Positions 1 through 50,750 of a DNA stretch of 64,000 bases are shown piece by piece. The stretch's first letter is position 1. Each line of letters starts with the position of its first letter. Below the pieces are notes generated by a model, which saw only the letters and a program-made list of their open reading frames with translations, had not been told where the DNA came from and searched no databases. Origin of the DNA: Salinimicrobium sediminilitoris (GTDB lineage Bacteria; Bacteroidota; Bacteroidia; Flavobacteriales; Flavobacteriaceae); the NCBI RefSeq assembly GCF_020866905.1, contig NZ_JAIVCC010000005.1, positions 670,088-734,087 of the forward strand, in the 5' to 3' direction. The translations under genes were made by a program, and so were the position numbers.

Positions 1-1
1 T

Positions 2-1333
2 CCCGGCCCCAGGTATACCAGTTATCCCACGGTGCCGTACTGGAATGAAGCCGCATTTACGGTAGAACAATATAAAGAGACGCTAAAAAAGTCATTTTTG
101 GAGAGCAATAGCAAGGAGGGGATTAGTATTTACATTCACCTGCCTTTTTGCGAGAGCCTTTGTACTTTTTGCGGCTGCAACAAACGTATTACCAAACGCC
201 ATGAAGTGGAGTCGCCGTACATCGCTGCGGTGCTCGAGGAGTGGGACATGTATGTGAACCTGCTGGAGGAAAAGCCGGTGATTAAGGAGATACATCTGGG
301 TGGAGGAACACCCACGTTCTTTTCTCCCGCAAATCTTAAGATCCTTCTCGACGGACTTTTCGAAAAAGCTGTGCGGGCAGAGGAAACCGATTTTAGCTTT
401 GAAGGCCACCCCAACAACACCAAACAGGAGCACCTGCAGTTGCTTTATGACCTGGGCTTTGAGAGGGTGAGTTACGGGGTTCAGGATTATAATTTTGAGG
501 TGCAGCGGGCTATTCACAGGTTTCAGCCTTTTGTGAATGTGAAAAATGCTACTGAAGGGGCCCGCGAAATTGGCTACACTTCTGTGGGTCACGATCTTAT
601 TTTTGGTCTGCCTTTTCAAACCGTAGATCACATTCGGGAAACCATTGAAAAGACCAAAGAGCTGATGCCGGACAGGATCGCGTTTTACAGCTACGCCCAT
701 GTGCCCTGGATCAAAGGAAACGGGCAGCGCGGCTTTAAGGAGGAAGATCTGCCTTCGGCCGATGTGAAGCGGGAGATGTATGAAGTGGGGAAACAACTGC
801 TCGCCGAAGCCGGTTATGTGGAAGTGGGCATGGACCATTTTGCACTAAAGAGCGATACGCTTTATAAGGCCATGGAGAACCACAAGCTGCACCGTAACTT
901 TATGGGCTACACTTCTTCCAAGACCAAAGTGATGATAGGTTTGGGAGTTTCGGCTATTAGTGACAGCTGGAGCGGTTTCGCCCAGAATGTCAAGACCATT
1001 GAAGAATATTACGAGATCCTTGAAAAAGGAGAACTGCCTCTTTACCGCGGACATATTCTTACTGCGGAAGACGAGAAACTCCGCCAGCACATTCTAAATC
1101 TCATGTGCAACCTGGAAACTTCCTGGAAAGATGACGACATGAAATTCCCCGAACTTCCTGAAGTCCTCATCAACCTGAAAGAAATGGAAGCCGATGGTCT
1201 CCTGGAATTCGGGGATGAAAAATTGATCATCAAAGAATCGGGAAGACCTTTTGTTCGAAATATTTGTATGGCTTTTGACCTGTTGCTGCAAAGAAGCAAA
1301 CCGGAGACGAGATTGTTTTCTATGACGGTTTAG
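2..1333 (+). CDS. hemN: oxygen-independent coproporphyrinogen III oxidase, 5' end missing
   Basis: Radical-SAM enzyme that decarboxylates coproporphyrinogen III to protoporphyrinogen IX in anaerobic heme synthesis. The frame is open from the window edge and already reads PGPRYTSYPT before any start codon; this is the conserved N-terminal HemN signature, so the gene begins outside the window. The GTG at 32 is therefore an internal codon. The radical-SAM cluster is visible as PFCESLCTFCGC (CxxxCxxCxC), followed by HLGGGTPTFF for SAM binding. About 443 residues are visible, close to full length (about 455). Downstream is a convergent operon on the other strand, 22 bp away. Family assignment is certain; only the first few residues are missing. 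Confidence 0.95.
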   Translation, partial: PGPRYTSYPTVPYWNEAAFTVEQYKETLKKSFLESNSKEGISIYIHLPFCESLCTFCGCNKRITKRHEVESPYIAAVLEEWDMYVNLLEEKPVIKEIHLGGGTPTFFSPANLKILLDGLFEKAVRAEETDFSFEGHPNNTKQEHLQLLYDLGFERVSYGVQDYNFEVQRAIHRFQPFVNVKNATEGAREIGYTSVGHDLIFGLPFQTVDHIRETIEKTKELMPDRIAFYSYAHVPWIKGNGQRGFKEEDLPSADVKREMYEVGKQLLAEAGYVEVGMDHFALKSDTLYKAMENHKLHRNFMGYTSSKTKVMIGLGVSAISDSWSGFAQNVKTIEEYYEILEKGELPLYRGHILTAEDEKLRQHILNLMCNLETSWKDDDMKFPELPEVLINLKEMEADGLLEFGDEKLIIKESGRPFVRNICMAFDLLLQRSKPETRLFSMTV

Positions 1334-15369: not shown

Positions 15370-17652
15370 TTATACTTCTACGGGTTCTTCTTTCCGTAAT
15401 TTTTCTTTTTTAGATGCCGGCAACTTCTTGCGGCTGTCAAGAGTAAATACAAACCATACAAAGGCAAACAGGCCTACTGCAAAAATTGTATCTCCAATTG
15501 CCCTCATCCAGCGCAGCGTATCCATTCCCGGTTGCTGCATAAATTCGGCAGAACGGGCATACCACATTCCTTCATTTACACTGGCTACTGTTTGTAGCAG
15601 GCCTATTGGAAGGACACTGAGCAGTACCATAAGAATAAGACCTATATTAATAGACCAGAAGGAGAAACTCAGCAGTTTATCATTCCATACCTGTACTCTG
15701 TACAAACTTCTAAGTACAAACAGCATGAGGCCGATTCCAAGGAAACCATATACTCCAAAGAGAGCGGTGTGTGCATGAACTGCAGTGGTGTTTAGTCCCT
15801 GCATGTAGTAAAGGGCGATTGGAGGATTGATAATAAATCCAAAGATCCCTGCTCCCAAGAAGTTCCAGAAGGCTACGGCTATAAGGCAGTAAATAGGCCA
15901 TTTGTAATCCTTAAGCCATTCTGTAGCTTTAGACAGTTTGTAGTTTTCATAAACTTCATAACCTATCAATACCAGCGGTACTACTTCCAGGGCGCTAAAG
16001 GTCGCTCCTAAAGCCATTACGGCTGTTGGGGTACCACTAAAATAGAGGTGGTGAAATGTTCCCAGAATACCTCCCGAGAGGAAGATCACGGTAGCCAACA
16101 GCACACTTAAAGTTGCTGTTTTGGTACGTAGCAAGCCAAGTCTTACGAAAAGGAAGGCAGAAACTACTGTGGCAAATACTTCAAAGAAGCCTTCTACCCA
16201 CAGGTGCACTACCCACCAGCGCCAGTATTCGGCAATCGCGAGATTTGTTTGTCTTCCCCACATAAGTCCTGCTCCATAGAACAAAGCAATGGCTGCGGAA
16301 GAAACAAGGAACATGATAAGCAGGTTTCTTTCTGAAGTTCTTTGACGTATTACCGGTATAAGTGGTCTCACCATAAGCGCGAGCCATACAAAGAGCCCTA
16401 CAAACAGGAATATTTGCCAGAATCTTCCCAGGTCCACGTATTCATAACCCTGGTGTCCAAACCAGAAGTTCTCTGCCAGTCCCAGTTTTTGCATGATTCC
16501 CATCCATTGTCCGGCCATAGAACCAAACACAATTATCAAAAGGCACACAAATAAGAAGTTAACTCCAAATTTCTGAAACTTAGGATCTTTTCCTGAAACT
16601 GCAGGCGCGATATAAAGTCCTGTGCCCAGCCAGGCAGTAGCGATCCAGAGGATTCCAAGTTGTACGTGCCAGGTACGGGATATTGAATAGGGGAGAATTT
16701 CGGCGAGGTCAAGACCATAGAAACCGTCTCCTTCAACTCCGTAATGTGCAGTTACTACTCCAAAGGTTACCTGGATAAGAATGAGAACACATACTATCCA
16801 AATGTACTTTTTCACCGCCAGCATAGAAGGCGTAATGGTTTGGTCCATTAATGGATCTTTCACCGGTCTTTCCAGCTCTTCCTCTTCTTTCATTCGGGCG
16901 TGGTAAAATACCATTAGACCAATTCCAACCAGAAGAAGAATAATACTAAATCCAGTCCAGATTAAAAGATCTCCGGTTGCCTTGTTGCCTACCAAATCAT
17001 CTGGGGGCCAGTTATGGGTGTAGGAGACATCACTGCCGGGACGTTCTGTAACAGTTGCCCAGGTGGCCCAGAAAAAGAAGCCGGCCATTTGGTGCATCCT
17101 TCCCTCGTCCTTTATGGAATTGGGAGGAATGGCGTAGTAATCCCTCAATTCATCCAGTTCGGGGTTCTCCATGAAGAGTCCGCGGTAATAGTCACTAAGA
17201 TATACTACGGCTTTTGCTCTCATAGGAGAGATGGTTATGGTGTTATCGGTTTCATTATAGGTGTTCTTTCTCAACTCCAGTTGTAACCTTCTTTCAAGGA
17301 GCGCCTGTTTTTCACTTTCCAGTTCCTCGTAAGTTTGACCATAATCTTCCTGTGACCATTCACCCAGTATAAACAATGCCTCCCGGTGGAGCCAGTCTGC
17401 GGTCCAGTCGGGGGCCTGGTATGCGCCGTGGCCCCATATGGAGCCAACTTCCTGCCCCCCCATACTTTGCCAAACGTTCTGCCCGTCTTTAATATCCTGA
17501 CCTTCGAAGACGATCTCTCCTTCGGTAGTGACTACTTTATCGGGCATTGGAGGCGCTTTTTGATAGATCTCAAAGCCATAGTAACCAAGGATGGCAAAGG
17601 ATGCGGTCACTACCAAAAGGAAAACGATCCATAATTTTCTTTCTTTACTCAT
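15370..17652 (-). CDS. norB: quinol-dependent nitric oxide reductase
   Basis: Single-subunit qNOR of 760 residues that reduces two NO to N2O with electrons from quinol, in the inner membrane. The N-terminal extension typical of qNOR is present (KVVTTEGEIVFEGQDIKDGQNVW, WGHGAYQAPDW), followed by about 14 membrane spans. Active-site features are visible: HLWVEGFFEVFATVV (His and catalytic Glu), HHLYFSGTP and VHAHTALFGVYG (heme and non-heme iron ligands). Full length, ATG at 17652. It lies 99 bp downstream of ric; the gap holds a terminator-like inverted repeat. Given the lack of other denitrification genes here, NO detoxification is the likely role. Confidence 0.95.
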   Translation of the reverse strand: MSKERKLWIVFLLVVTASFAILGYYGFEIYQKAPPMPDKVVTTEGEIVFEGQDIKDGQNVWQSMGGQEVGSIWGHGAYQAPDWTADWLHREALFILGEWSQEDYGQTYEELESEKQALLERRLQLELRKNTYNETDNTITISPMRAKAVVYLSDYYRGLFMENPELDELRDYYAIPPNSIKDEGRMHQMAGFFFWATWATVTERPGSDVSYTHNWPPDDLVGNKATGDLLIWTGFSIILLLVGIGLMVFYHARMKEEEELERPVKDPLMDQTITPSMLAVKKYIWIVCVLILIQVTFGVVTAHYGVEGDGFYGLDLAEILPYSISRTWHVQLGILWIATAWLGTGLYIAPAVSGKDPKFQKFGVNFLFVCLLIIVFGSMAGQWMGIMQKLGLAENFWFGHQGYEYVDLGRFWQIFLFVGLFVWLALMVRPLIPVIRQRTSERNLLIMFLVSSAAIALFYGAGLMWGRQTNLAIAEYWRWWVVHLWVEGFFEVFATVVSAFLFVRLGLLRTKTATLSVLLATVIFLSGGILGTFHHLYFSGTPTAVMALGATFSALEVVPLVLIGYEVYENYKLSKATEWLKDYKWPIYCLIAVAFWNFLGAGIFGFIINPPIALYYMQGLNTTAVHAHTALFGVYGFLGIGLMLFVLRSLYRVQVWNDKLLSFSFWSINIGLILMVLLSVLPIGLLQTVASVNEGMWYARSAEFMQQPGMDTLRWMRAIGDTIFAVGLFAFVWFVFTLDSRKKLPASKKEKLRKEEPVEV

Positions 17653-17751: not shown

Positions 17752-18480
17752 TTATGAACGGAGTTCTTTTTCAAGGTTAAGAGCCTTTGGGAAAAGAATA
17801 TTGTTCTCAAGATGCACATGTTGGTGTAGGTCCTGCTCAAATTCTTCCAGTTTGGCGTAGAATGCTCTGTAGGTGTTACAGGCGCCTTGAGGCGGAGTAT
17901 AATTGCTGCTTAATTCGGAAATTCTTCTAAGTAGTTCCCCGGCATCTTCGTGCTCGATCTCCATCATCTTAATGGGATTGTCCACGGTGCCAAAATTTGC
18001 TGCAGGCAATTCCATATTCTCTTTTTTTGCCTGGACCATCTTTTTAATGAACGGGAACAGGATTAACTCTTCTTTTTTAAGGTGAGCGCTTAATTCCCCG
18101 GCTACCTGCTTTACAAGATCTTTTATCTCCAGCAGTTCGTGGTAATGTCCTCCATGAACCTGTGCAACTCTCTCGGAATACTGGAGTAGGAGTGGGATAT
18201 TTTCTTCAACATAGCTGTGATGAACATTGATGATGTGATCTGTAAGGAAATCAAGCTCCCATCTATTGTAATTGGTTGCTTTTGATGTGTCCTGGTCTAC
18301 ATTGAGAAGGTCCCGGCTCAACAGGTTATAGTCTACTTTGTATTTTTCACATGCCTTTTCAAGGCTAATGCCGCCGCCGCAACAAAAATCGATGCCGTAT
18401 CTTTTAAAGATGTGTGCAGTTTTGATGTTCTCTGTCACCATTTCTGCGACTGTTTTTGTTTGTAAGTTTTCCATGATCAT
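17752..18480 (-). CDS. ric: iron-sulfur cluster repair di-iron protein (RIC/ScdA/YtfE type)
   Basis: A 242-residue cytoplasmic protein that repairs iron-sulfur clusters damaged by NO or oxidants. The N-terminal ScdA_N/DUF542 domain carries GIDFCCGGG with the paired Cys. The rest is a hemerythrin-like four-helix domain with His/Glu ligands (HHSYVEENIPLLL, HGGHYHELLEIKD, HLKKEELILFPF, EIEHEDAGELL, HQHVHLENNILFP). ATG codons exist at 18480 and 18474. It is the first gene of the ric-norB series. Upstream sits a CRP/FNR-type palindrome correctly placed for activation. Confidence 0.95.
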   Translation of the reverse strand: MIMENLQTKTVAEMVTENIKTAHIFKRYGIDFCCGGGISLEKACEKYKVDYNLLSRDLLNVDQDTSKATNYNRWELDFLTDHIINVHHSYVEENIPLLLQYSERVAQVHGGHYHELLEIKDLVKQVAGELSAHLKKEELILFPFIKKMVQAKKENMELPAANFGTVDNPIKMMEIEHEDAGELLRRISELSSNYTPPQGACNTYRAFYAKLEEFEQDLHQHVHLENNILFPKALNLEKELRS

Positions 18481-18515: not shown

Positions 18516-18523
18516 CAAAGATC
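18516..18523 (-). promoter_or_regulatory. -7 element of ric
   Basis: On the minus strand GATCTTTG, one base off TAnnTTTG. The edge of the box is 29.5 bp from the centre of the palindrome at 18543-18562, the same distance as in the usp promoter at 19501. Confidence 0.5.
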
Positions 18524-18542
18524 AAAGATTGGCAGGGGCTGG

Positions 18543-18562
18543 TTTATGAGTCGGGTCATAAA
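18543..18562 (-). promoter_or_regulatory. CRP/FNR-type operator upstream of ric
   Basis: Perfect inverted repeat TTTATGA-N6-TCATAAA, i.e. a TGA-N6-TCA core. Its centre (18552.5) would be near -41.5 from a start around 18511, the class II activator position. Confidence 0.6.
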
Positions 18563-18563
18563 A

Positions 18564-18575
18564 GACAAATTTGTC
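18564..18575. promoter_or_regulatory. second palindrome upstream of ric
   Basis: GACAAATTTGTC is a perfect 12-bp palindrome one base beyond the TGA-N6-TCA site, farther from ric. It could be a site for another regulator or a second dimer. Confidence 0.4.
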
Positions 18576-18593
18576 CGAGTTATTTTAAGGGAA

Positions 18594-18623
18594 TAAAAAA
18601 ACGCCCCCGGGATTGGAGGCGTC
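18594..18623 (-). terminator. intrinsic terminator of the usp gene
   Basis: On the minus strand a GACGCC ... GGGCGT hairpin is followed by seven T, 44 bp after the usp stop codon. Confidence 0.75.
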
Positions 18624-18666
18624 AACTTTAAAAAACAATCTAATAACACTAAACTAAAACAACCTA

Positions 18667-19479
18667 TTAACCATGTAAAACCAGTAATGGCAGCTGATTT
18701 ATAAACGGAATATTTTCATTCTCTTCGTTACGCAGAAATTTTTGGCACAAGTTGAGGTTCTTTGCAGCCAATACGATCATGTCTACATCGCGGTTGGCAA
18801 TAAGTATTTTCTTGGGACTTTGATCCTTGTAGGTGTAGTAGGTTTGTAGAACTGGAATTCTAGGGGAAAAAGAATCCTGCAGGAAATCACGGTTCTTAAT
18901 TTGTTCGGTCGAGGGTTCCTTATCATTGTTGAAAATCTCCAGGATCTTGACATTGGCCTTTGAAAGGGAAGCGAGATTGAGGAGAGTACGCAAAACCTTA
19001 CTCCCGTAATGGATCTTATAATCTGTAGGGAAAAGGATCTTTTTGTGTTCTTTAAAAGAAGCGTGTTCCGAAATGGCAAGCACGGGACATTTGACTTTCA
19101 TCATAACGTCTGAAGTGTTTTTGCCTATAACGACACCTTCATTATTGGTTTTTCCTTTGGTGCCCATAAGGATTAGATCTATCTGTTTTTCCTGTACCTT
19201 GGCTCTTACGGCATTGATTAGGTAATCTGCCTTAAAACAAATATTGAAAGTATGCTCTGGATTAGTACGTATACTTTTAAGCCAGTCAAGCAACCTGTCG
19301 AAATTTGACTGTACTTCCTGGGACATTGACATATATCCAGTCGCCATTTTATTTACCGGAACCGGGAAAACATGTAGCAAATGAAAATTGCAGGGAGTGT
19401 CCTTAAAGAACTGCAGCGCGTATGCTGCGGCATTCCTGCTATTTTCAGAAAAATCTGTGGGCAATAAGATATTCATCAT
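18667..19479 (-). CDS. universal stress protein, two Usp domains
   Basis: A 270-residue cytoplasmic protein with tandem Usp folds. The first domain (1-140) is well conserved: NILLPTDFSENSRNAAAYAL at the start and GTKGKTNNEGVVIGKNTSDV, an ATP-binding loop of the Gx2Gx9G type. The second domain (from KKILFPTDYKIHYGS) lacks that loop and may not bind nucleotide. ATG codons at 19479 and 19476. It is transcribed alone, with a terminator downstream and a promoter upstream that carries a TGA-N6-TCA operator. Usp genes of this kind in low-oxygen regulons respond to FNR-like activators, which fits the CRP-like gene next to it. Confidence 0.9.
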   Translation of the reverse strand: MMNILLPTDFSENSRNAAAYALQFFKDTPCNFHLLHVFPVPVNKMATGYMSMSQEVQSNFDRLLDWLKSIRTNPEHTFNICFKADYLINAVRAKVQEKQIDLILMGTKGKTNNEGVVIGKNTSDVMMKVKCPVLAISEHASFKEHKKILFPTDYKIHYGSKVLRTLLNLASLSKANVKILEIFNNDKEPSTEQIKNRDFLQDSFSPRIPVLQTYYTYKDQSPKKILIANRDVDMIVLAAKNLNLCQKFLRNEENENIPFINQLPLLVLHG

Positions 19480-19500
19480 CTGTCACATCTATTTACCCCG

Positions 19501-19508
19501 CAAAAATA
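19501..19508 (-). promoter_or_regulatory. -7 element of the usp gene
   Basis: On the minus strand TATTTTTG, a full match to TAnnTTTG, 22 bases before the start codon. Confidence 0.6.
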
Positions 19509-19531
19509 TGCAGGATGCATAGTGGAAAAAA

Positions 19532-19543
19532 TGATGAACATCA
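19532..19543 (-). promoter_or_regulatory. FNR/CRP-type operator upstream of usp
   Basis: TGATGAACATCA: TGAT-N4-ATCA, the core of FNR-type sites and also TGA-N6-TCA. Its centre (19537.5) is 29.5 bp from the -7 box edge, i.e. near -41.5 of the expected start. Confidence 0.6.
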
Positions 19544-19574: not shown

Positions 19575-20627
19575 TCAACTAATTTTTTTAAGTGCTTCCA
19601 CATTGAGAAGCTTGATATTGCGGCCTTCTATTTCCAGCAGACCTTCTTTCTTAAAATCTGATAAAGTACGAATAAGGGTTTCTGAAGCCATTCCTGCCAC
19701 ACTGGCAAGGTCGCTCCTCGAGATCCTGATGCTCTGGGTTGGATGCCTTCTTATTTTTTGAGAGAATAACAAAATGGTACGTGCTGCCTTTTTTCGAACC
19801 GACCCATAGGCCATTTCCAGGAGTTGCCCTTTAATACCTGCAAGGTTATCACCCAGTACATCTATTAACTCAAGGGTGATGTTGCTGTTATTCATGAGGA
19901 TGTGCTTCAGCTCCTCTTTGGAAACAGCATATACCCTTGTTTCCTCCATAGCGGTAGCATATTCGGTATAGGTGTCACTCTTTTTAAAAGAAGTATTTCC
20001 GAAGAAATCTCCTTCCTTATATAGGGAGGTAATAAGTTCTTTTCCATATTCATCCATACGGTGACTCTTGACCACTCCTTTATCAATGAAGAAAAAATGG
20101 TTTCCCAGCTTCCCTTCCTCGTAGATGGTTTCACCTGCCTTAAAAGTTTGCTGTTCGTATTTCTTAACTTCCTCCCTTAGTTCCTGCAGGGAATTGATCT
20201 TTTGCTGGGCATCTTCCTGTGCAGGAGGATTGTTGGTTTCCTGAATTTTACTAAGGATCGCAACTTTTGCCAGGCGGCTTTCTATGGCGCTTATTAGTTC
20301 TTCTTCTTCGAAAGGTTTGGTGAGGTAATCATCTGCCCCCAGATCCATTCCGCGACGAATATCTTTATGTTCTGTTTTTGCTGAAAGAAAGATAAATGGG
20401 ATGTGGCGTGTTTGAGGGTCTTCAGAAAGAGCCTGAAGTACCCCATAGCCGTCCATCTCGGGCATCATAATATCACAGATTATAATGTTTGGCAATTCCT
20501 GTCGTGCCACCTCCAGGCCGGAGCGGCCATTGGCTGCCGTGATAACGTTATATTCTGCAAGCTCAAGTAGTTCGGCTGTGTTTTCCCGTACTACGGTATC
20601 ATCTTCTATAAAAAGTACTTTTTTCAT
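19575..20627 (-). CDS. response regulator fused to a CRP/FNR-family transcription factor
   Basis: A 350-residue hybrid. Residues 3-120 form a receiver domain with the acidic pocket D9/D10, phospho-acceptor D52 (IICDIMMPEMDG) and K104 (YLTKPF). Residues about 150-265 are a cyclic-nucleotide-binding-type beta-roll, and about 275-345 a Crp-type helix-turn-helix with recognition helix SETLIRTL, which keeps the Glu and Arg that read the TGA half-site in CRP and FNR. There is only one Cys, so it is not an Fe-S sensor like FNR. Its ATG overlaps the kinase stop (ATGA), so the two are a cognate pair. Predicted to activate ric and usp on phosphorylation (inference from sites). Confidence 0.92.
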   Translation of the reverse strand: MKKVLFIEDDTVVRENTAELLELAEYNVITAANGRSGLEVARQELPNIIICDIMMPEMDGYGVLQALSEDPQTRHIPFIFLSAKTEHKDIRRGMDLGADDYLTKPFEEEELISAIESRLAKVAILSKIQETNNPPAQEDAQQKINSLQELREEVKKYEQQTFKAGETIYEEGKLGNHFFFIDKGVVKSHRMDEYGKELITSLYKEGDFFGNTSFKKSDTYTEYATAMEETRVYAVSKEELKHILMNNSNITLELIDVLGDNLAGIKGQLLEMAYGSVRKKAARTILLFSQKIRRHPTQSIRISRSDLASVAGMASETLIRTLSDFKKEGLLEIEGRNIKLLNVEALKKIS

Positions 20628-21895
20628 TCTTTAACTATAGGTAGTTCTACAATAAACTGGGTTCCCGCATTTTCTTTACTGCTAAAGCTTATGGTTCCTC
20701 CCAGGTTCTCCAAATGCACTTTGGCTATGTTAAGACCTATTCCTGTGCCCTGGTTTAAAAGAGCATTTTCGGCCCTGAAATATCTTTCAAAGATATGTTT
20801 TTGATCTTTCTCGGGGATTCCCATTCCCTCATCTGTTACCTTAAACCGGATTATTTTTCCCTCCACCTCAATTTCAAATCTAATTAAAGTGTCTTCCGGG
20901 GAATATTTTATTGCGTTGTTCAATAGATTGGACAGGACCAGTTCAAGAATCTTTTCATCCTGCTGAAGTACGATATTTTCAATGTCACGGGTATATTTGA
21001 TGTTTTGCCCGCTCTTAAGAGTGACATTGGCGTTATATACTACTTCATTGATCAGTTTACTAAGGTTGAAACTGGTGAATTTATAAGTAACCCTACCGCT
21101 TTCAAGCCTTTCAATAGATAAAAAGTCATTAAGGATGTTGTCCAGATAATGAACCTTGCTCTTGATTGTATTAAGGTGTTTTTCCCTTTTTTCCTGGTGC
21201 TCTTCAAGTTTGTACTTTCCGGCAAGAACCACCGAGGTCAGTATTCCGCTTAGAGGAGTTTTAAATTCATGCGATACAAGGGAAAGAAATTTGGTTTTTA
21301 ATTCATTGAGTTCTTTCTCTTTTTGAAGGGCAGTTTTGATCCGGTTCTCGGCCTCTTTACGGCGTTTTACCTCCAGCTCCAGATTTTTGTTAGCTTTCTG
21401 AAGCTTTTCAATGCTTTCCTCCAGCTCTTTTGTCCTTACCTTGATCTTATCTTCAAGTTCATTATTTAAATCAGTGATTTGACGTTGCGCCTCCTTCCTG
21501 ACCGAGATGTCAATTATGAGAGACATTACAAACTGCTCTTCCCCAATTTTGAAAGGGTTCAAACCGGCTTCTACAGGAAACTCATCGCCATTCTTTTTCA
21601 CTCCATACAGGTCACGCCCATGGCCCATTTGCCTTTTTTCACTGTCTTTCAAAAACCCCTTAAAATGAGCAGGATGTGCAGAACGGTATTTTGGAGGTAT
21701 CAGGAGATTAAGAGGCTTGTTTTTAAGTTCACCTTTTTCGTACCCAAACATTCTATCTGCGGCGAGGTTACTGCTTATAATGTTCTGATTTTTATCAACT
21801 ACAATAATACCTTCTGAAGCTGCTTCAAAAAGTACATTGAAAACATTCTGGTCTTTTTCAAATATTTCCAGGTGCTTATCTGCGGCGGTACTCAA
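20624..21895 (-). CDS. PAS-domain sensor histidine kinase with FixL-like features
   Basis: Sensor kinase partner of the CRP-fusion regulator. Order: PAS domain, coiled coil, HisKA with LVSHEFKTPLSG (the phosphorylated His), and HATPase with N box NLLNNAIKYSPED, G1 DEGMGIPEKDQ, F box and G2 GTGIGLNIAK. There is no membrane span, so it is cytosolic. The PAS has PPKYRSAHPAHF and GHGRDLYGVKKNG, aligned with the proximal heme His and distal Arg of FixL. The start is uncertain: the TTG at 21922 lies inside a perfect -7-like box (TAAATTTG on the minus strand, 21927-21920), so I use the TTG at 21895, which gives 423 residues. Confidence 0.88.
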   Translation of the reverse strand: MSTAADKHLEIFEKDQNVFNVLFEAASEGIIVVDKNQNIISSNLAADRMFGYEKGELKNKPLNLLIPPKYRSAHPAHFKGFLKDSEKRQMGHGRDLYGVKKNGDEFPVEAGLNPFKIGEEQFVMSLIIDISVRKEAQRQITDLNNELEDKIKVRTKELEESIEKLQKANKNLELEVKRRKEAENRIKTALQKEKELNELKTKFLSLVSHEFKTPLSGILTSVVLAGKYKLEEHQEKREKHLNTIKSKVHYLDNILNDFLSIERLESGRVTYKFTSFNLSKLINEVVYNANVTLKSGQNIKYTRDIENIVLQQDEKILELVLSNLLNNAIKYSPEDTLIRFEIEVEGKIIRFKVTDEGMGIPEKDQKHIFERYFRAENALLNQGTGIGLNIAKVHLENLGGTISFSSKENAGTQFIVELPIVKE

Positions 21896-21922
21896 TACTG
21901 AATTTTTTGGAGTGAAGGTCAA

Positions 21923-22841: not shown

Positions 22842-23678
22842 CTATTTTTCGAGTTTAAAAGTAATGACCGGACTATTTGCGTGATTCACCAGGTCTTCGC
22901 TTATGCTGCCATTAAAAAAATGTGATAATCCTTTGCGTCCATGGGTGGCGATGCCCATTACATCTGCATTGACCTTCTTAGAGAAATTTAATATTCCCTC
23001 TTCTACGGTATCATCGTTAAAGACGTGGAACTCATAATTGTTGAAATCTGATCCCTCCATGTACTTTTTCAGCTTTTTATCGCAGTCAATCGTGGTCAAA
23101 AATTCATTGGCGGTATTTATATAGACCAAATGTAGTTTTGCCTCAAAGGTTTCGGCCAGGGCCACCACCTTTGCCAGGGTCTTTCTCCCGGTGGTTTCCA
23201 GGTTGGTAGCAAAAATGAAATTTTTGATATCAAAGGCGGGATGGTCATTTTTAACGACAAGCACCGGCACTTCTGATGTTCTCACAACCTTTTCGGTATT
23301 TGAACCTATGAACATTTCTTTTAAGCCGGAAGCTCCCTGGGAACCCATAACAATAAAGTCGCAGTCGTGTTTTTCGCTGGCTTCCAGGATGCCGTCGAAT
23401 GCCTTATTGATCTCCACAATATCATGCACCGCAAGACCTTTTAGGTAAGGGCGTGAAAGCAGGTCGTCGAACCTCTTTTTTGCCAGCTTCATAAAGAAAA
23501 TAGCCTCGGGTAAATCGTTGGTACGTGTTTCTCCCACAGGGTTCACCATATCTGCAGGTAATTCTATCAAATGCAAAAGATAAATTTCTGCATTAAATTT
23601 TTTCGCGAGTTGAGCGGCTACTTTGAGGGCGTTTTCTGCCTTCTCCGAAAAGTCGGTCGGCACAAGGATTTTTTTCAT
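22842..23678 (-). CDS. universal stress protein, two Usp domains
   Basis: A 278-residue tandem Usp protein. Both halves keep the nucleotide-binding loop: GSQGASGLKEMFIGSNTEKV in the first and GIATHGRKGLSHFFNGSISE in the second, so unlike the paralogue at 18667 both domains may bind ATP. It starts KKILVPTDFSEKAENALKVA at ATG 23678. It is divergent from the rimP operon. No TGA-N6-TCA site is found in its upstream region, so it is probably outside the local CRP-like regulon. Confidence 0.9.
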   Translation of the reverse strand: MKKILVPTDFSEKAENALKVAAQLAKKFNAEIYLLHLIELPADMVNPVGETRTNDLPEAIFFMKLAKKRFDDLLSRPYLKGLAVHDIVEINKAFDGILEASEKHDCDFIVMGSQGASGLKEMFIGSNTEKVVRTSEVPVLVVKNDHPAFDIKNFIFATNLETTGRKTLAKVVALAETFEAKLHLVYINTANEFLTTIDCDKKLKKYMEGSDFNNYEFHVFNDDTVEEGILNFSKKVNADVMGIATHGRKGLSHFFNGSISEDLVNHANSPVITFKLEK

Positions 23679-29326: not shown

Positions 29327-29418
29327 TCGGTAAATTTTTAGGTGCTAAAACATGATTTTTGTCACGTTTTAATTCTACTAAAAATCGTACCAAATAAGAC
29401 GTTAATTCAACTTATAAT

Positions 29419-48355: not shown

Positions 48356-48426
48356 TGCTGTTTTAGGCATCTCTCTGCCTGCAGGAAAAAATGACCCACA
48401 TCATTAAGCTGTAAATACTAAACCCT

Positions 48427-48434
48427 TACCTTTG
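48427..48434 (+). promoter_or_regulatory. -7 element of maeB
   Basis: TACCTTTG fits TAnnTTTG, 25 bases before ATG 48459. It includes the TTG at 48432, which therefore is not the start codon. Confidence 0.5.
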
Positions 48435-48458: not shown

Positions 48459-50750
48459 ATGAGGAACGAACGCAAAAGACGTGAAGCTTTAATTTATCAC
48501 GCAAAACCGCACCCCGGTAAAATACAGGTGGTGCCTACCAAAAAATATTCTACCCAACGCGATCTTTCACTGGCTTACTCTCCCGGGGTTGCAGAGCCTT
48601 GCCTGGAGATCCATAAAAATGTAGAGAACGTATATAAATACACCACCAAAGGAAACCTTGTGGCGGTAATTTCTAACGGTACCGCCGTACTTGGCCTTGG
48701 TGACATAGGTCCCGAAGCTTCAAAACCCGTAATGGAAGGTAAAGGCTTGCTCTTTAAAATTTTCGCAGATATTGATGTTTTTGACATTGAAGTGGACACT
48801 AAAAATGTGGATGCTTTTGTGGAGACCGTCAAGAATATTGCGCCTACTTTTGGCGGAATTAACCTGGAAGATATAGCAGCGCCCGAAGCTTTTGAGATCG
48901 AAAGAAGGTTAAAGGCAGAACTTGATATTCCGGTAATGCATGATGACCAGCACGGTACGGCTATTATTTCTTCGGCTGCCCTGCTTAATGCCCTTGATCT
49001 TGCAAAAAAGAAAATAGGTAAAGTGAAAGTGGTGATCTCGGGGGCGGGATCGGCTGCAATTGCCTGTGCCAATCTTTATGTTTCCCTCGGGGTGAAGGTG
49101 GAAAACATCGTGATGTTTGATGTAAAAGGAGTGCTGCACAAAGACCGGAAAGACCTTTCTGATCTTCAGAAGAGATTTGCGGTAAAAAAGGAATATAAGA
49201 ACTTGTCGGCCGCTATGGAAGGGGCCGATGTGTTTTTAGGATTATCGGTTGGAAATATTGTAAAACCCGACATGCTGGAGAAAATGGCCAAACGGCCTAT
49301 TGTTTTCGCCATGGCCAACCCAGAACCTGAAATAGATTACGACCTGGCCGTTGCCACCAGAAAAGATATTATTATGGCGACTGGTCGTAGTGATCATCCT
49401 AATCAGGTGAACAATGTGCTTGGTTTTCCTTTCATTTTTAGGGGCGCTCTTGATGTGAGGGCAACCAAGATCAATGAAGAAATGAAGATGGCAGCCGTAA
49501 AAGCCCTTGCTGCACTGGCTAAGGAGCCGGTGCCCGAGCAGGTGAATATTGCCTACGGGGAAACCAAACTTCTCTTTGGGAAAGATTATATTATCCCTAA
49601 GCCTTTTGATCCCAGGTTGATCACACAGGTTCCTCCGGCAGTGGCTAAGGCCGCAATGGAAAGCGGAGTTGCCAAAAATCCTATTCAGGATTGGGCACGT
49701 TATGAAGATGAGCTGCTGGAAAGGATGGGGAATGACAATAAGATCACCCGTTTGCTTATGAACAGGGCGAAAATGAATCCTAAGAAAGTTGTTTTTGCCG
49801 AAGCCGATCACCTGGATGTGCTTAAAGCAGCACAGATTGCACACGACGAAGGTATTGCACAACCTATCTTGCTGGGCCGCAGAGATGTGATTGAAGAACT
49901 AATGAAGGAGATCGATTTTCATGCAGATGATGTTGTAATAATCGATTCCAAAAGTGATGTTGAAGACGAACGTCGCAACCGGTATGCAGAGGTTTACTGG
50001 GAAACCCGAAAACGAAAGGGAGTTACCCGCTATGATGCCCGCTTATTAATGCGTCAACGTAATTACTTTGCGGCTATGATGGTGAACTCGGGAGATGCAG
50101 ATGCTTTGATTTCAGGATATTCCAGGTCTTATCCTACAGTACTTAAACCTATGCTTGAGTTAATAGGTAAAGCTGCGGGCGTTTCTAAAGTTGCAGCGAC
50201 GAACCTTATGAATACCTCCCGTGGGCCACTTTTTATTAGTGATACTTCGGTAAATATTGATCCCACTGCCAAGGAACTCGGAAAGATTGCTCAAATGACC
50301 GCCAGGACCGTGAGACTGTTTGGAATGGAGCCGGTGATGGCGATGATCTCCTACGGGAATTTTGGATCCTCACAGAATGAAAAAGCCGAAAAAGTAAGGG
50401 AAGCGGTAGATTATCTACATCGCTTTTACCCGGACCTTATTGTCGATGGGGAAATGCAGACCGACTTTGCGCTTAACAATGAAATGTTGCAAAAGAAATT
50501 TCCATTTTCAAAACTTGCGGGTCGTAAAGTGAACACTCTTATATTTCCTAATCTCGATTCGGGTAACAGTACCTATAAGCTGCTAAAAGAGCTTAACAAA
50601 ACCGAATCTGTTGGGCCAATCCTAATGGGGATGAATAAACCTGTACACGTGCTTCAACTTGGTGCAAGTGTAGAGGAAATAGTGAACATGACTGCTGTAG
50701 CAGTGGTAGATGCCCAGGAAAAGGAGCGAAAAGCTAAACGTGAACAATAA
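48459..50750 (+). CDS. maeB: NADP-dependent malic enzyme with phosphotransacetylase-like domain
   Basis: A 763-residue two-domain enzyme. The first 430 residues are malic enzyme (malate to pyruvate and CO2): SLAYSPGVAEPC, LGLGDIGPEASKPVMEGK, DDQHGTAI, and the nucleotide-binding GAGSAAIACANL. The rest is a phosphotransacetylase-like domain (from KVVFAEADHLDVLKAA; TSRGPLFISDTSVNIDP) that is usually regulatory, sensing acetyl-CoA. ATG 48459 chosen because the upstream TTG is part of the promoter. Confidence 0.95.
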   Translation: MRNERKRREALIYHAKPHPGKIQVVPTKKYSTQRDLSLAYSPGVAEPCLEIHKNVENVYKYTTKGNLVAVISNGTAVLGLGDIGPEASKPVMEGKGLLFKIFADIDVFDIEVDTKNVDAFVETVKNIAPTFGGINLEDIAAPEAFEIERRLKAELDIPVMHDDQHGTAIISSAALLNALDLAKKKIGKVKVVISGAGSAAIACANLYVSLGVKVENIVMFDVKGVLHKDRKDLSDLQKRFAVKKEYKNLSAAMEGADVFLGLSVGNIVKPDMLEKMAKRPIVFAMANPEPEIDYDLAVATRKDIIMATGRSDHPNQVNNVLGFPFIFRGALDVRATKINEEMKMAAVKALAALAKEPVPEQVNIAYGETKLLFGKDYIIPKPFDPRLITQVPPAVAKAAMESGVAKNPIQDWARYEDELLERMGNDNKITRLLMNRAKMNPKKVVFAEADHLDVLKAAQIAHDEGIAQPILLGRRDVIEELMKEIDFHADDVVIIDSKSDVEDERRNRYAEVYWETRKRKGVTRYDARLLMRQRNYFAAMMVNSGDADALISGYSRSYPTVLKPMLELIGKAAGVSKVAATNLMNTSRGPLFISDTSVNIDPTAKELGKIAQMTARTVRLFGMEPVMAMISYGNFGSSQNEKAEKVREAVDYLHRFYPDLIVDGEMQTDFALNNEMLQKKFPFSKLAGRKVNTLIFPNLDSGNSTYKLLKELNKTESVGPILMGMNKPVHVLQLGASVEEIVNMTAVAVVDAQEKERKAKREQ

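Follow-up and report, generated by a model that had tools for sequence, protein, structure and literature searches.

The TGA-N6-TCA operators and TAnnTTTG boxes that precede ric and usp in Salinimicrobium sediminilitoris belong to a genome-wide and class-wide regulon, with about fifty candidate promoters in this genome alone. Many of these candidates precede predicted low-oxygen genes, and the gene set as a whole resembles that of FNR and FixK. We consider it fairly probable that the chief circuit of this low-oxygen/NO regulon is the pair encoded next to usp, namely a PAS histidine kinase and a response regulator in which a receiver domain is fused to a CRP/FNR-type output. The features on which the argument draws, all from the window (the whole 64,000-nucleotide stretch of DNA that was analysed), are as follows.

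1..1333, plus strand: hemN (TIGR00538, 8.4e-117), the start of which lies before the window.
15370..17652, minus strand: norB-type nitric oxide reductase gene, 3′ of ric (Pfam NorB_cytochrome_c-like and COX1).
17752..18480, minus strand: ric, a YtfE/ScdA/Ric iron-sulfur cluster repair di-iron protein (TIGR03652, 2.8e-73; ScdA_N and Hemerythrin).
18516..18523, minus strand: ric -7 box GATCTTTG, that is TAnnTTTG with first base G.
18543..18562, minus strand: ric operator TTTATGACCCGACTCATAAA, read from the sequence, with its TGA-N6-TCA core at 18547-18558.
18667..19479, minus strand: usp, a universal stress protein (Pfam Usp), whose start codon lies 21 nt downstream of the box.
19501..19508, minus strand: usp -7 box TATTTTTG, a perfect TAnnTTTG.
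19532..19543, minus strand: usp operator TGATGTTCATCA, in the context aacTGATGTTCATCAtttttt.
19575..20627, minus strand: response regulator with CRP/FNR output (REC 4-116, cNMP fold 160-247, HTH_Crp_2 282-349).
20624..21922, minus strand: PAS histidine kinase, partner of the response regulator (FixL/DosP-like PAS; TTG start assumed).
48392-48403, plus strand: maeB operator TGACCCACATCA.
48427-48434, plus strand: maeB -7 box TACCTTTG, from the box scan.
48459..50750, plus strand: maeB, a malic enzyme-phosphotransacetylase fusion, with its ATG 24 nt after the box.

At ric and usp alike, 23 bp separate TCA from the box and the operator centre lies 29.5 bp from the box edge; a preliminary description of this DNA had reported this equal distance, as well as the perfect box at usp, and both observations hold. 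The maeB promoter, absent from that description, is a third case with the same spacing of 23, and these three are the only operator-box pairings in the window when spacings of 18-28 are scanned with the first or second base of TAnnTTTG left free. Just 5′ of the window start, hemN has a site at C10:669995-670037, again with spacing 23. Class II sites for CRP and FNR have their activator position at -41.5, measured to the centre of the site. Start-site mapping in F. psychrophilum, as given in part of PMC9723704, places TAnnTTTG at -12 to -5, so the operators of the window would be centred at -41.5, which bears out the class II position first proposed for them. Together with the enrichment of spacing 23 described below, that is of a fixed distance to the core promoter, this box position leads us to predict that sites of the ric and usp type are class II operators on the Bacteroidia TAnnTTTG promoter.

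The scan of the window found no operator-box pair upstream of its second usp gene (22842-23678), and no site upstream of the kinase-regulator operon of S. sediminilitoris; predicted sites before such kinases do occur in other genomes. Two further sequences of the window are of note. At window positions 29353-29364 lies TGATTTTTGTCA, 54 bp 5′ of a multiheme cytochrome gene that is the first of an operon resembling alternative complex III, with no box at spacings 18-28. Just 5′ of the ric operator, at 18564-18575, lies the perfect 12-bp palindrome GACAAATTTGTC, which is unchanged in the nearest relative (L116) and incompletely kept in others.

The spacing of 23 bp stands out well beyond chance. 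When TGA-N6-TCA was paired with TAnnTTTG throughout the S. sediminilitoris genome, 46 matches were found over 21 spacings (13-33 bp), 16 of them at spacing 23, compared with 1.5 per spacing on average over the other 20 (Poisson P for spacing 23 = 7.7e-12); genome-wide enrichment of the geometry was a check that the preliminary description had itself named, and its outcome is positive. The sharpened form TGAYNNNNRTCA-N23-TANNTTTG, with at most one mismatch, matches 51 times in this genome and its reversed control 6 times; the ric site, with two departures from this form, lies outside the set of 51. Across 119 Bacteroidia genomes, strict matches number 441 at spacing 23, 30 at a decoy spacing of 19 and 11 for the backward control. 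The layout is thus spread over genome and class, and the idea of a local regulon has to be given up. Among 177 sites of a looser set collected near homologues of the regulator, the base preceding TGA is C in 54%, A in 23% and T in 17%, and the base following TCA is T in 93%, not A.

Genes downstream of the 51 sites are in keeping with a response to low oxygen and NO. An ORF starts 2-36 nt past the box at 34 of the 51 (with automatic start choice), and a Pfam family was found in 28 of the 30 downstream ORFs examined; some of the 51, lying inside genes or before doubtful ORFs, will be false. The respiratory and anaerobic targets named by Pfam include ccoNO, a ccoI-like P-type ATPase with a metal-binding N-terminus, POR, a PFL-like glycyl radical enzyme and a NapC/NrfH-type cytochrome. 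Pfam further names formate-tetrahydrofolate ligase, a ferredoxin-like protein, an Rrf2 regulator, two hemerythrin proteins, citrate synthase, Glu/Leu dehydrogenase, DeoC, YceI and two MFS transporters. Five Usp proteins, with the usp of the window, make six, and hemN (TIGR00538) and maeB are targets outside the Pfam run. Other targets have no evident tie to oxygen (HlyD-type, thioredoxin-type, TauE, peptidase U32 and ferric-reductase-like proteins). Many of the candidate promoters therefore precede predicted low-oxygen genes, including the core targets of FNR and FixK regulons (cco, ccoI/fixI, hemN and usp), and the theme of NO and low oxygen read earlier from two promoters is carried further by ccoNO, hemN, ric-norB, PFL, POR, the NrfH-like cytochrome and the hemerythrins. 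In F. psychrophilum, cbb3 is induced under oxygen limitation, according to part of PMC9723704; a word search of the main text of that paper found no occurrence of Fnr, Crp or response regulator.

Two of the sites in this gene set have other kinds of neighbour. At G000:C14:102185-102227 (L082), a perfect site and box are followed closely by only a 43-codon ORF, and the low-oxygen regulon may here include a small RNA or a small protein. At G000:C14:160316-160358 (L083), a perfect site precedes an Rrf2-family regulator gene and then a nadA-like gene; a nadA-like gene carries a site in genome G101 too (L321; nadA named by eye in both cases).

Conservation of the ric and usp promoters supports the sites while also setting the two promoters apart. 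The ric site, at spacing 23 and with its half-sites, is kept in all six of the ric homologues that the fetched neighbourhoods contain (L116, with a ric 97% identical, is hardly an independent case), and the usp site is present in the six closest usp homologues of these neighbourhoods; the operator-to-box spacers of the homologues have diverged while the sites were kept. Among 60 rows taken from 111 usp matches, 27 have both site and box, each at spacing 23. Salinimicrobium sp. TH3 is close to this genome: its L116 locus shows 100% identity along the 210 residues that were compared, and the figures are 97% for ric and 98.5% for usp. A broader sample of the family has ric in 54 of 120 genomes. 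Thirty ric loci were fetched, of which 11 went unread because the CCGG anchor failed; with a scan that required A as the second box base, the site at spacing 23 was found in 8 of the 19 readable loci, S. sediminilitoris included, and was absent in 11. All eight site-bearing loci, S. sediminilitoris again included, have the weak box [GC]AnnTTTG, which indicates that ric and usp promoters differ in kind. We found no own site before norB in any of four orthologues of the fetched neighbourhoods (0/4), so that ric and norB probably form one transcription unit with ric first.

This difference raises an alternative that we regard as unlikely, yet the best placed of those considered: ric-norB may be under a separate NO-sensing CRP/FNR regulator of the same geometry, so that the ric and usp promoters would answer different signals. 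Beyond the conserved weak box, the sites of ric in Salinimicrobium and near relatives are extended to a TTATGA-N6-TCATAA-like form, and a hemerythrin-like gene at C14:166969 repeats the ric form exactly (TTATGACCGACCTCATAA-N23-CATCTTTG). In other Bacteroidia, however, the promoter-proximal operators found next to the fused regulator also include variants of the form TGAY....CTCA, and at L318 a site precedes ric in a genome where the fused regulator is present and an FNR-like one absent. A genome scan for the ric-type TTATGA-N6-TCATAA with at most one mismatch was too noisy to help, giving 46 sites and 23 in the control. Three ric-type sites are perfect, those at ric, C14:166969 and C16:81449; the second has the promoter geometry, and no such box was seen near the third. 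The promoter at G000:C14:166969-166986 (L229) consists of the two elements 23 bp apart and lies before a gene for a hemerythrin-like protein of 209 aa (named by eye).

We return to the kinase and the fused regulator as the principal circuit. An ORF matching the kinase is directly upstream of the regulator in 76 of 80 loci (the best 80 of at least 568), and the column of the FixL heme ligand holds His in 76 of 77 kinase rows, the exception (L175) being a gap, in an alignment in which six rows look misaligned (L167, L183, L186, L188, L192 and L194). In a second alignment, of 36 PAS domains chosen from the 77 rows, the heme-ligand His is invariant (36/36), and the domain is in this respect of the FixL type. 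All 14 PDB sequence matches of kinase residues 1-150 are FixL, DosP/EcDOS or 10jx, the last a heme-binding PAS according to its Foldseek listing. A model of the kinase PAS (mean pLDDT 85.5) has heme PAS domains at Foldseek ranks 1-22, and the first LOV domain appears at rank 23. The distal Arg of FixL, which we take to be R220 in BjFixL, is present in the window kinase; over the same 77 rows, with their six apparently misaligned members, its column holds R in 34, L in 18, M in 13, other residues in 11 and a gap in one. From sequence and model together, it is likely that the kinase PAS binds heme.

Homologues of the regulator (E ≤ 1e-40) occur in 63 of the 119 Bacteroidia genomes, and the great majority of these matches are full-length. 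The REC domain is clear (Response_reg, 1e-28), with its phosphoacceptor Asp52 invariant in all 23 regulators aligned from 30 loci; Glu and Arg of the recognition helix (ASETLIR) are likewise invariant in these 23. The preliminary description had named a CRP/FNR-type protein with these residues in its helix, and the Glu and Arg are indeed there, but the protein is a two-component response regulator beside a PAS kinase and not a plain CRP or FNR. Nor do the two residues suffice to name it as the reader of the sites: by eye, both are kept in six of the nine CRP-family proteins found in the S. sediminilitoris genome, so they do not single out the window regulator, and a paralogue on contig C16 is equally linked to sites. 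The regulator has one cysteine by eye, within REC, and thus lacks the N-terminal cysteine cluster of Fe-S FNR. Arg82-Ser83 of CRP, presumably the pair that binds the cAMP phosphate, is not kept (a gap stands opposite Arg in a profile alignment to E. coli CRP), in keeping with a protein controlled through its receiver and not through cAMP. A second receiver-CRP paralogue lies at G000:C11:454411-455433 (L085) and is followed by an Hsp20-like and three usp-like genes (names by eye), the first of which carries a site.

The location of the operators links them to the fused regulator. Within the neighbourhoods of the best 80 of at least 568 regulator loci (1.47 Mb, leaning to Flavobacteriaceae), 81 strict sites occur at spacing 23, spread over 48 of the 80 loci; the remaining 32 spacings account for 24 in all, none of them for more than 6. 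In 20 genomes that have the regulator and no FNR-like paralogue, eight sites lie near the regulator and 0.57 are expected (14-fold; P = 1.6e-7), a figure from genomes hand-picked out of 53 for long contigs, several of them site-rich and some clipped by contig ends, with the expected value taken from the same 20. This density suggests that the regulator probably reads the predicted sites. The mean number of sites per genome is 4.72 with the regulator only (53 genomes), 4.25 with an FNR-like protein only (8), 7.2 with both (10) and 1.77 with neither (48); regulator-only genomes exceed those with neither at a one-sided P of 1.8e-6, kinship being ignored. Genomes with neither protein still have 1.77 sites at spacing 23 against 0.23 at spacing 19, and it follows that other CRP/FNR proteins use the layout too.

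In the looser set near the regulator, 66 of the 177 sites, in 42 loci, precede Usp genes (named by eye and borne out by a BLAST count). Other clusters, also recognised by eye, are TerB-like genes (15 sites), HPF/RaiA-like genes (13), ccoN (12) and FixL-like PAS kinases (6). The HPF/RaiA genes are of the ribosome hibernation kind and, like the TerB genes, follow sites in loci L116-L195, which suggests translation shut-down as a part of the response. In regulator-only genomes more widely, the genes that follow sites include ccoN, ric, one usp and those for a ccoI-like ATPase and a PAS kinase (by eye, in 30 of the 63 matches).

We infer the working of this circuit as follows. The kinase would autophosphorylate once oxygen, the presumed signal, leaves its heme, and would hand the phosphate to the receiver of the 19575-20627 protein. 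Through its CRP/FNR part, the phosphorylated regulator would then form a dimer on TGAYNNNNRTCA at -41.5, contact RNA polymerase and activate transcription, so that a single regulatory protein of the pair would cover the work of both FixJ and FixK.

A second alternative concerns which protein does most of the reading. It is improbable, slightly more so than a separate regulator for ric, that an FNR-like paralogue (C16:101636-102226) reads most of the operators and the receiver-CRP protein only a few, or others. This paralogue has the same Glu and Arg in its recognition helix and shares contig C16 with the ccoN and ccoI-like sites; by eye it contains no cysteine, and so lacks the cysteine cluster of Fe-S FNR. 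Without the fused regulator, five sites lie near FNR-like homologues and 0.27 are expected (19-fold; 12 regions of 8 genomes), and in such FNR-only genomes sites precede ccoN, hemN and YceI-like genes (by eye, in 30 of the 51 matches). Against this, the 53 of 119 genomes that have the fused regulator and are without the FNR-like paralogue still keep their average of 4.72 sites, and the sites near the fused regulator so often precede usp-like genes (the 66 of 177 above). These genome classes rest on an FNR-like search from which 6 of 24 genomes were dropped, five because the match lay inside the receiver-CRP gene (G009, G051, G074, G088 and G115) and one because it was weak (G066). Both proteins probably control some of the same genes, ric perhaps among them. 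That FnrN and FixK share one operator is a recognised obstacle in Alphaproteobacteria, as part of PMC4999443 notes.

Two ways of telling the proteins apart by their sites were tried and given up. Away from the regulator locus, usp offers no contrast, with 1 of 30 regulator-only and 0 of 31 FNR-only sites. The idea of two clean operator classes distinguished by their flanks was likewise dropped, the ric-type observation excepted: in 30 loci each, from 51 FNR-like and 63 regulator matches, there was no usable difference, the base before TGA being A in 14 and C in 9 of 31 FNR-only sites and A in 10 and C in 8 of 30 regulator-only sites. A smaller comparison of flanks (16 and 7 sites) had at first hinted at a difference. 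The three readings discussed so far, with the kinase and fused regulator as chief circuit, the FNR-like protein as main reader or ric under its own regulator, overlap, and so do the likelihoods that we attach to them. Very improbable by comparison is that a repressor binds the operators, or that base composition in AT-rich promoters accounts for the spacing: both TGA and TCA are short, and sites overlapping promoters can repress too, but the peak is a single bp wide in S. sediminilitoris and around the 80 loci, with neighbouring spacings near background, the reversed control gives 11 against 441, and a centre at -41.5 is where class II sites activate.

The circuit of kinase and fused regulator may extend well beyond this family. 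Around the regulator, 35 of the 177 sites (22 of 80 loci) are tandem: the operator at -41.5 is preceded, at a distance of exactly 22 bp, by another TGAYNNNNRTCA operator, with at most two cases at any other of the distances tested, 13 to 79. All of these tandem loci are among the more distant L160-L190; several of the tandem sites precede ccoN and usp, and many of the promoter-proximal partners read TGAY....CTCA, like ric. We give even chances to the proposal that much of the Bacteroidia runs its low-oxygen response by a one-step version of FixL-FixJ-FixK, in which a heme-PAS kinase would phosphorylate a receiver fused to a FixK-like activator bound 23 bp 5′ of TAnnTTTG, with a second copy 22 bp (two helical turns) upstream in several lineages outside Flavobacteriaceae.

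Set beside known systems, the parts of this circuit are of familiar kinds. The regulator has the fold of E. coli CRP and, in its recognition helix, the same Glu and Arg; it differs in a site that lacks the outer TG of TGTGA, in the fused receiver and in the absence of the Arg-Ser pair that contacts cAMP in CRP. The alphaproteobacterial FNR/FixK proteins (FnrL of Rhodobacter sphaeroides, FixK) have a gene set in common with the Bacteroidia sites, the FNR core regulon of Alphaproteobacteria comprising a P-type ATPase, cytochrome oxidase, UspA and hemN, according to part of PMC2908626. Their operator core, TGAT/C-N4-A/GTCA within TTGAT-N4-ATCAA, is alike as well, whereas our 177 sites do not follow the full palindrome: their first half-site lacks its outer T, having mostly C there, and on the side of the promoter the flank reads TCAT. 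The promoter itself is TAnnTTTG here, and a receiver domain is part of the candidate regulator.

Among the matches listed by our literature search, the scope of which left most subscription journals outside, we found neither an oxygen-sensing regulon with such an operator nor a FixL-like kinase or receiver-CRP fusion for Bacteroidota, which is weak evidence of absence; within that literature, it is the fusion of a receiver to a FixK-like protein behind a predicted heme-PAS kinase, together with the rigid promoter rule across the class, that we did not meet. The rule itself (TGAYNNNNRTCA, 23 bp, TAnnTTTG) can be used to predict candidates for low-oxygen genes in the Bacteroidia, a class of central importance in soils, the sea and the gut.

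A further likeness is to FixL-FixJ-FixK, which, as described in part of PMC4999443, likewise joins a heme-PAS kinase (predicted here), a phosphoreceiver and a CRP/FNR output to cco and hemN targets. The same part of that source describes hFixL-FxkR-FixKf as another way of connecting a kinase, a response regulator and FixK, which has two separate proteins after the kinase, unlike the fused regulator here. At our locus there are no separate fixJ and fixK genes, and one fused gene lies beside the kinase: a single receiver-CRP protein stands in place of FixK and of FixJ, the latter a receiver with an HTH of its own, and the step of fixK transcription falls away. The fusion of a receiver to a FixK-like activator offers a natural test of how a regulatory cascade gets shortened.
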